NCBI GenBank assembly: GCA_013041745.1 | Contig: JABDRN010000100.1 | Span: 1 to 64,000, forward strand | Reading direction: 5' to 3' | Source: Gammaproteobacteria bacterium | GTDB taxonomy: Bacteria > Pseudomonadota > Gammaproteobacteria > SZUA-229 | Length of the DNA stretch: 64,000 bases | In this document: one piece after another, positions 5,373 to 7,330 of the stretch | Position numbering within the stretch: the stretch's first letter is position 1 | How the letters are laid out: every line of letters starts with the position of its first letter | The notes under the pieces: generated by a model | What the model saw: the letters and a program-made list of their open reading frames with translations, nothing else | Told to the model about the DNA's origin: nothing | The model's database searches: none | Position numbers and translations under genes: made by a program

Positions 5373-6317
5373 ATGCGCAACAGTCCGAAAAGAACCAGTC
5401 AGCTACGCGCATATTTCAGTCACCACCTGCGTGTCAGTCTGGCAAGCCTGGGGCGCTTATACGCACAGCCGATTGCCACACTGATGACAGCTGCAGTCAT
5501 CGCGATCGCTTTAGCTTTGCCAGTCGGTCTCTATATCGGCCTTGCCAATATCGGCCAGGTCAGTACCGGCTGGGATGGTTCAACCCAGATATCTCTGTTC
5601 CTGCATACTCAGGTAACAGAAGCCGAAGCAAAAAAACTGCAGTCAAAACTTGAGAAACATAAAGATATCAAAAAAGTCGAACTCATCGATAAAGAAAAAG
5701 GCCTGCAGCAATTCAAGGAGATATCAGGCTTTGGTGATGCACTGAAATATCTCGACAGCAACCCGCTTCCCATCGTCCTCGTCGTTCATCCGAGGATCCT
5801 TTCGAACCAGCCAGACCGTACAACAAAGCTGGTAAAAGATCTGGGCAAGAATAAACTGGTCGAGATCGCTCAACTCGATGTGCAGTGGGTAAAACGGCTC
5901 TACACCTTTATCGAGATCGCCAATCGAAGCATCTGGGTAATCAGCTCTATGCTGGCCATCGCCGTACTGCTGGTGGTCGGTAATACGATCAGGCTCGATA
6001 TACAGAATCGCCGTGAAGAGATAGAAGTATCCAAGCTCATCGGCGCCTCTGACTCTTTCATCCGCCGGCCATTTTTATATACTGGTTTCTGGTACGGTAT
6101 CATCGGAGGCCTGCTGGCATGGGTCATCACACTACTCTCCCTGTCGATGATGCAAAATCCTATACACAAACTGGCATTGCTTTATCACAGTGATTTTCGA
6201 CTCACCGGCCTGGGGATGGCAAATACCCTGCTTTTGATCCTGATTAGCTGTGCATTAGGATTAATAGGCTCATGGATCGCAGTGAGCCGACATCTTAAAG
6301 ATATAGAGCCCAGCTAA
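5373..6317 (+). CDS. ftsX: Cell division protein FtsX
   Basis: FtsX permease topology and position after ftsE. Confidence 0.95.
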   Translation: MRNSPKRTSQLRAYFSHHLRVSLASLGRLYAQPIATLMTAAVIAIALALPVGLYIGLANIGQVSTGWDGSTQISLFLHTQVTEAEAKKLQSKLEKHKDIKKVELIDKEKGLQQFKEISGFGDALKYLDSNPLPIVLVVHPRILSNQPDRTTKLVKDLGKNKLVEIAQLDVQWVKRLYTFIEIANRSIWVISSMLAIAVLLVVGNTIRLDIQNRREEIEVSKLIGASDSFIRRPFLYTGFWYGIIGGLLAWVITLLSLSMMQNPIHKLALLYHSDFRLTGLGMANTLLLILISCALGLIGSWIAVSRHLKDIEPS

Positions 6318-6416
6318 AATCCTCATTATTTATATAATAATCAATATCTTACGATTGAATTAGTATCCACTACCGGGAAAAAGAAATATATAAATTACAG
6401 TGAACTTCTCTTAAAA

Positions 6417-6443
6417 TTAGCACTCTTATCTGCGGAGTGCTAA
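6417..6443 (+). promoter_or_regulatory. CIRCE element (HrcA operator) upstream of rpoH
   Basis: TTAGCACTC-TTATCTGCG-GAGTGCTAA: 18/18 match to the CIRCE consensus TTAGCACTC-N9-GAGTGCTAA. Confidence 0.93.
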
Positions 6444-6469
6444 AATATTCAACCATGAGAGAAGACAAC

Positions 6470-7330
6470 ATGACAAAAGCTTTAATTCCAGCCCTACAAG
6501 GTGCATCTTTAAGTGCAGGCAACCTGGACGCTTATATCCGTCAGATCAACGGCATCCCGGTATTAACCGCTGATGAAGAACGTGAGTTAGCTCTGCGACT
6601 CGAAAAACAGAACGACCTCGAAGCAGCGCAGCAATTGATTATGTCTAATCTACGTTTCGTGGTTAAGATTGCACGAGGATACTCCGGTTATGGCTTACCA
6701 CTGGCGGACCTGATCCAGGAAGGCAATATCGGTCTGATGAAAGCGGTAAAACGTTTTTCTACGACGCACGAAGTACGCCTTATCTCGTACGCAGTTCACT
6801 GGATCAAGTCTGAAATTCACGAGTTCGTATTGCGTAACTGGCGCATCGTTAAAGTAGCTACAACCAAGCCACAGCGCAAACTGTTCTTCAAACTTCGCAG
6901 TTCGAAGCAAAGACTGGGCTGGTTCAGCAAAGATGAGGTCAATGACGTTGCAAATACACTCGGGGTAAAACCAGAAACCGTTCTAGAAATGGAATCTCGC
7001 CTCAGTGGTAGCGATGTAACCTTTGATCCGCCAACGAATGATAACGATGACGAGCAGCATTTTACTCCAGCCGCTTACCTCACTGATGAAAGTGCAGATC
7101 CGTCTTATCAGCTGGAGCATGATGACACCCGCTCACAGGAATTAAGCCTGATGGCAGACTCATTGAAAACTCTTGATGAGCGAAGCCAGGAAATTATTAA
7201 TCGTCGCTGGTTGAACGAGAACAAGGCGACACTGCATGAGCTGGCCGATGAATATAAGGTTTCTGCAGAACGTATCCGTCAGATCGAAAAGAATGCGCTG
7301 AACAAAATGCGGATAATTTTTGAAGCCTGA
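6470..7330 (+). CDS. rpoH: RNA polymerase sigma-32 factor RpoH (start moved to 6470 from ORF start 6437)
   Basis: RpoH box [36 protein letters not shown]-track start lies inside the CIRCE element. Confidence 0.96.

Follow-up and report, generated by a model that had tools for sequence, protein, structure and literature searches.

In Bacillus subtilis, the repressor HrcA acts on the operator CIRCE (controlling inverted repeat of chaperone expression), and GroE titration of HrcA is established there. The textbook picture of the proteobacterial heat-shock response is built instead on Escherichia coli, which lacks HrcA and in which the output of rpoH, the gene encoding sigma-32, is set mainly by mRNA structure and sigma-32 turnover, and sigma-32 and HrcA are usually seen as parallel systems sharing targets. 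In Geobacter sulfurreducens, a perfect CIRCE (TTAGCACTC-N9-GAGTGCTAA) was predicted 51 nt before the start codon of rpoH itself (Rodionov et al., 2004, PMC545781, Table 8). Here we analyze a 64,000-nt stretch (referred to as the window) of contig JABDRN010000100.1 from a gammaproteobacterium of the lineage SZUA-229 (assembly GCA_013041745.1), in which a perfect CIRCE likewise precedes rpoH. We consider it very probable that this operator overlaps both a sigma-E (RpoE) promoter and a sigma-70-type extended -10 element of rpoH, and that HrcA thereby gates sigma-32 synthesis. The features of the locus, in window positions, are as follows.

6417..6443, + strand: CIRCE operator (predicted HrcA site), with left arm 6417-6425, N9 6426-6434, and right arm 6435-6443
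6402..6407, + strand: predicted sigma-E -35 element GAACTT, with a same-genus identity of 0.98, in fixed register with the operator and tracking RpoE
6424..6428, + strand: predicted sigma-E -10 element TCTTA, 16 nt after GAACTT
6417..6422, + strand: possible weak sigma-70-type -35 element TTAGCA, a 4/6 match coinciding with an operator arm, from which conservation cannot separate it
6438..6446, + strand: putative sigma-70-type extended -10 element TGC-TAAAAT, with TAAAAT at 6441-6446 and its last three bases outside the operator
6470..7330, + strand: rpoH (sigma-32), 286 aa, above the cut-offs of both TIGR02392 and NF005143
7352..7387, + strand: probable intrinsic terminator 3' of rpoH, formed by a symmetric hairpin and a run of T

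The CIRCE operator at rpoH and its conservation

The operator reads TTAGCACTC-TTATCTGCG-GAGTGCTAA, agrees with CIRCE at 18/18 arm positions, and lies 27 nt upstream of the rpoH ATG (6470). It is the sole CIRCE match in the whole window at three or fewer mismatches, compared to 0.01 per window expected by dinucleotide shuffling, and only 1/950 composition-shuffled rpoH upstream regions contained a CIRCE; these two figures rule out a chance repeat. A preliminary description of this DNA had reported a perfect CIRCE in front of a likely rpoH, which is borne out by the absence of mismatches and by the identity of the downstream gene product as RpoH (TIGR02392, 394 bits; cut-off 323).

The same genome (2.97 Mb, 138 contigs, 95.7% complete) encodes a full-length HrcA (TIGR00331, 320 bits; cut-off 197; 2e-95), whose gene is the first of a hrcA-grpE-dnaK-dnaJ cluster, as well as an RpoE (307 bits, 7.6e-92). 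At three or fewer mismatches it holds four CIRCE sites in total, with perfect copies before rpoH and before two groES genes and a two-mismatch copy before hrcA, each of the four (4/4) standing before a heat-shock gene. The two groES genes, each with a perfect CIRCE of its own, are located at C9:66-356 and C80:76999-77277, the former at a contig end.

A CIRCE with 0-2 arm mismatches was found upstream of rpoH in 16/16 same-genus genomes that contain rpoH (the genome under study included) and in 4/4 other same-family genomes that contain it. Mean same-genus identity, in an ungapped comparison, is 0.97 for the CIRCE arms and 0.98 for GAACTT, compared to 0.50 for the N9 and 0.27 for the DNA 46-120 nt upstream. 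Beyond the family, we surveyed the class Gammaproteobacteria (betaproteobacteria included) with one genome per family, counting a CIRCE upstream of rpoH at three or fewer arm mismatches. Among the 131 families with rpoH, the site is present in 91/99 that carry hrcA and in 4/32 that do not. Judging from these genomes, a CIRCE at rpoH is the usual state in the hrcA-bearing families of the class. By its inverted repeat, the hrcA gene and groE and dnaK sites of the same genome, and this conservation, the window site can be assigned to CIRCE on sequence grounds.

The layered circuit proposed in the preliminary description, in which HrcA represses rpoH, is well supported by these comparisons. It had named two findings that would speak against it, a genome without hrcA and a repeat not conserved upstream of rpoH in relatives; hrcA is present, and both close and distant relatives keep the repeat. 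The further CIRCE sites that it advised looking for were found at the two groES genes and at hrcA-grpE-dnaK-dnaJ.

Predicted promoters overlapping the operator

When the 95 family sites are aligned on CIRCE, three conserved elements emerge that HrcA does not require. One is GGAACTT at -16 to -10 from CIRCE, and another is T-[AC]-A at N9 positions 1-3 (T at position 1 in 65/95 families, A at position 3 in 72/95), which gives TC-TNA 16 nt past GAACTT. The last, A-A-T, directly follows the right arm and completes TGC-TAAAAT. The sequence GAAC starts exactly at -15 from CIRCE in 52/95 families, compared to an average of 0.46 at each position farther upstream. In the window, the first two elements form TGAACTT-N16-TCTTA (6401-6428), which agrees with a sigma-E promoter in its GGAACTT-like -35 element, its TCNNA-like -10 element, and their spacing of about 16 nt. 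The -10 element joins the two final nucleotides of the left arm to N9 positions 1-3, and transcription by sigma-E would be expected to start at about 6434, inside CIRCE.

If this element is read by sigma-E, it should depend on the presence of RpoE. Among the CIRCE-bearing families, a sigma-E -35 element occurs in 74/83 that encode RpoE and in 0/12 that do not. The absence of GAACTT where RpoE is absent is an independent prediction of the sigma-E assignment and therefore supports it. Similarly, A occupies N9 position 3 in 62/74 families that have a sigma-E -35 element, compared to 10/21 that lack it. The better supported promoter of rpoH, as far as conservation can tell, is thus a sigma-E promoter with its -10 element inside the operator, and the operator is predicted to stand in fixed register on this promoter in most families.

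The preliminary description had instead drawn a sigma-70-type pair across the operator, and our scanner returned the same pair (TTAGCA and TAAAAT separated by 18 nt, with TG before the -10 element; 9/12 matches). At this stringency, three promoter matches were found compared to 2.1 expected, so that the pair alone is no better than chance. Its -10 element, however, is conserved across families. At operator index +29, the last position of the -10 hexamer, 84/95 families have T, without matching conservation in the left flank, and this base is T in both 66/74 families with a sigma-E -35 element and 18/21 without. A symmetric extension of the HrcA site was considered as a cause of the conserved AAT and rejected, as the left flank is unconserved and the groES CIRCE sites of the class differ, with T at +29 in 4/27 only. 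A TAAAAT-like -10 element kept regardless of RpoE fits a second, housekeeping promoter. The conserved -10 part of the earlier proposal therefore stands, but the sigma-E promoter is the better supported of the two, and the sigma-70-type promoter is probably a second, overlapping one.

The groES sites also serve as a control for the sigma-E -35 element, as GAAC is found at -17 to -14 in 0/27 of them. They carry a TTGAC...TATnAT promoter in fixed register, whose -10 element abuts the left arm and ends in the arm's first base. From these alignments, one operator appears to be combined with a different promoter in fixed register at each target.

Genome contigs scanned with the composite pattern GAAC-N11-TTRGCACTC-NNA-N6-GAGTGCTAA yielded at least 118 stretches. 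Among the 118 matches listed, 112 precede rpoH by alignment, three are on truncated records whose sequence reads as an RpoH N-terminus or a probable one, and the other three lie in different places. Cultured carriers of the composite include Alcanivorax jadensis T9, Methyloversatilis thermotolerans 3T, and Plasticicumulans acidivorans DSM 23606; Deefgea rivuli DSM 18356 also has a match, on a record that ends within the rpoH start. In a draw of 299 genomes from the phylum, the exact composite has four matches, all inside the class and none outside it; because complete genomes are plentiful in this draw and an exact match is a strict requirement, the low number does not conflict with the per-family survey.

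Two further arrangements were seen in individual families. In G088, a sigma-E/CIRCE composite in the same register precedes an apparent clpB (C8:47854-47895); this family has hrcA and RpoE, and its own rpoH lacks a CIRCE. In G034, a family without RpoE and without a sigma-E -35 element, two tandem CIRCE-like sites lie 4 nt apart before rpoH.

The gene order around the operator is ftsY-ftsE-ftsX-rpoH. An in-frame ATG is also present at 6455, which leaves the true start of rpoH uncertain by 15 nt; the 15-nt spacing of the two ATGs (6455 and 6470) is kept in those same-genus upstream regions that were read. The scanner lists the downstream terminator hairpin on the - strand, and its + strand form was read from the sequence. 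Given this probable terminator, the rpoH unit is probably monocistronic.

Proposed gating of sigma-32 synthesis and alternative explanations

For rpoH we infer HrcA binding, steric repression, GroE titration, and derepression by heat. When GroE-type chaperone capacity is adequate, active HrcA would occupy 6417-6443 and, by covering the sigma-E -10 element, the expected start, and half of the sigma-70-type -10 element, would sterically exclude both holoenzymes. Unfolded cytosolic proteins would occupy GroE, leaving HrcA inactive and the operator cleared, and sigma-E (rising with envelope stress) and the housekeeping sigma factor could then transcribe rpoH. More sigma-32 would yield more chaperones, GroE included, which would restore HrcA. 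Synthesis of sigma-32 would in this way be gated by an envelope signal, through sigma-E, and a cytosolic signal, through HrcA, and would require the loss of HrcA repression.

An unlikely alternative is that HrcA represses rpoH through the sigma-70 promoter only (TTAGCA/TAAAAT), GAACTT being incidental. The scanner match and the T at +29, which is retained in most families with or without a sigma-E -35 element, agree with such a promoter, but an incidental GAACTT should not keep a fixed register, be conserved within the genus at the level of the operator arms, or track rpoE, nor should the A at N9 position 3 be more frequent where the sigma-E -35 element is present. It is hardly credible that CIRCE works mainly at the RNA level, as a 5' hairpin that affects the stability or translation of the rpoH mRNA, and not as a DNA operator. 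Hairpins of 5' CIRCEs have been proposed to influence stability elsewhere in bacteria; however, a transcript from the predicted sigma-E start within CIRCE would contain the right arm alone, the presence of the site tracks hrcA, and no Rfam match was found in 6200-6800 at E up to 1. Moreover, CIRCE lies anywhere from 5 to 184 nt before the rpoH start codon across families but keeps its register to the -35 element, a pattern that favors a DNA operator rather than an mRNA hairpin. We also regard it as very unlikely that the rpoH site is a relic out of use in this organism, with HrcA serving groE and dnaK. Decayed versions at the same place do exist in two families that fail the CIRCE count, one with a right arm one base short (G093, in which no hrcA was detected) and one with a shortened spacer (G123), but the window copy is perfect and the same-genus arms are far better conserved than the more distant upstream DNA.

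Several points weigh against the proposed gating. Eight hrcA-bearing families have no CIRCE at rpoH, and nine families with RpoE have no recognizable sigma-E -35 element in register. Four families (G144, G137, G040, and G091) keep a CIRCE at rpoH with no hrcA found by TIGR00331 or PF01628; a divergent HrcA missed by the former was considered and rejected, as the PF01628 search found none, and assembly gaps or recent loss are candidate reasons. The p-values of the two associations (9e-17 by Fisher's test for CIRCE with hrcA; 5e-10 for the sigma-E -35 element with RpoE) overstate independence, as the families share ancestry, and the presence of RpoE was called in the latter by a single profile and its cut-off. 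Finally, either of the two promoters may carry most of the transcription.

Comparison with known systems

Full-text searches of the open literature turned up neither a description of rpoH being controlled by HrcA in beta- or gammaproteobacteria nor one of a CIRCE/sigma-E overlap, and a 2003 survey by Permina and Gelfand, which reportedly covers the HrcA regulons of beta-, gamma-, and epsilon-proteobacteria, may list some rpoH sites. The components are known singly, and the conserved composite and its breadth appear to be new. Should direct repression of rpoH by HrcA, a prediction open to test in the cultured carriers, hold for most families that carry hrcA, the HrcA and sigma-32 systems would be arranged in series, with a chaperone-titrated repressor meeting an envelope-stress sigma factor at a single 42-bp site.

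Compared to the CIRCE/HrcA system of the B. subtilis type, the operator sequence and spacing are the same, and hrcA and CIRCEs at groES and hrcA-grpE-dnaK-dnaJ are also present here. However, the target in the window encodes a sigma factor instead of a chaperone, and its promoter is predicted to be of the sigma-E type. The G. sulfurreducens case is a prediction in another class, made for one genome (it is not listed for G. metallireducens) and with no sigma-E promoter noted, whereas the site described here recurs in most families of the class that carry hrcA. The HrcA site on rpoH that the preliminary description had singled out is thus real as a predicted site but not unique.

The closest promoter is that of E. 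coli rpoH, where GAACTT-N16-TCTGA, known as the sigma-E promoter P3, precedes the start codon by 120 nt. Its geometry is identical to that in the window, and rpoH is downstream of ftsX in both. Unlike the window, E. coli rpoH has no CIRCE, and E. coli is not among the control genomes matching the hrcA model. If HrcA does repress rpoH directly, the composite would also suggest an origin for the E. coli rpoH promoter. We lean towards the view that gating of an rpoH sigma-E promoter by HrcA is the ancient, standard condition in Gammaproteobacteria, and that E. coli is derived, having lost HrcA and the operator and been left with a bare P3.
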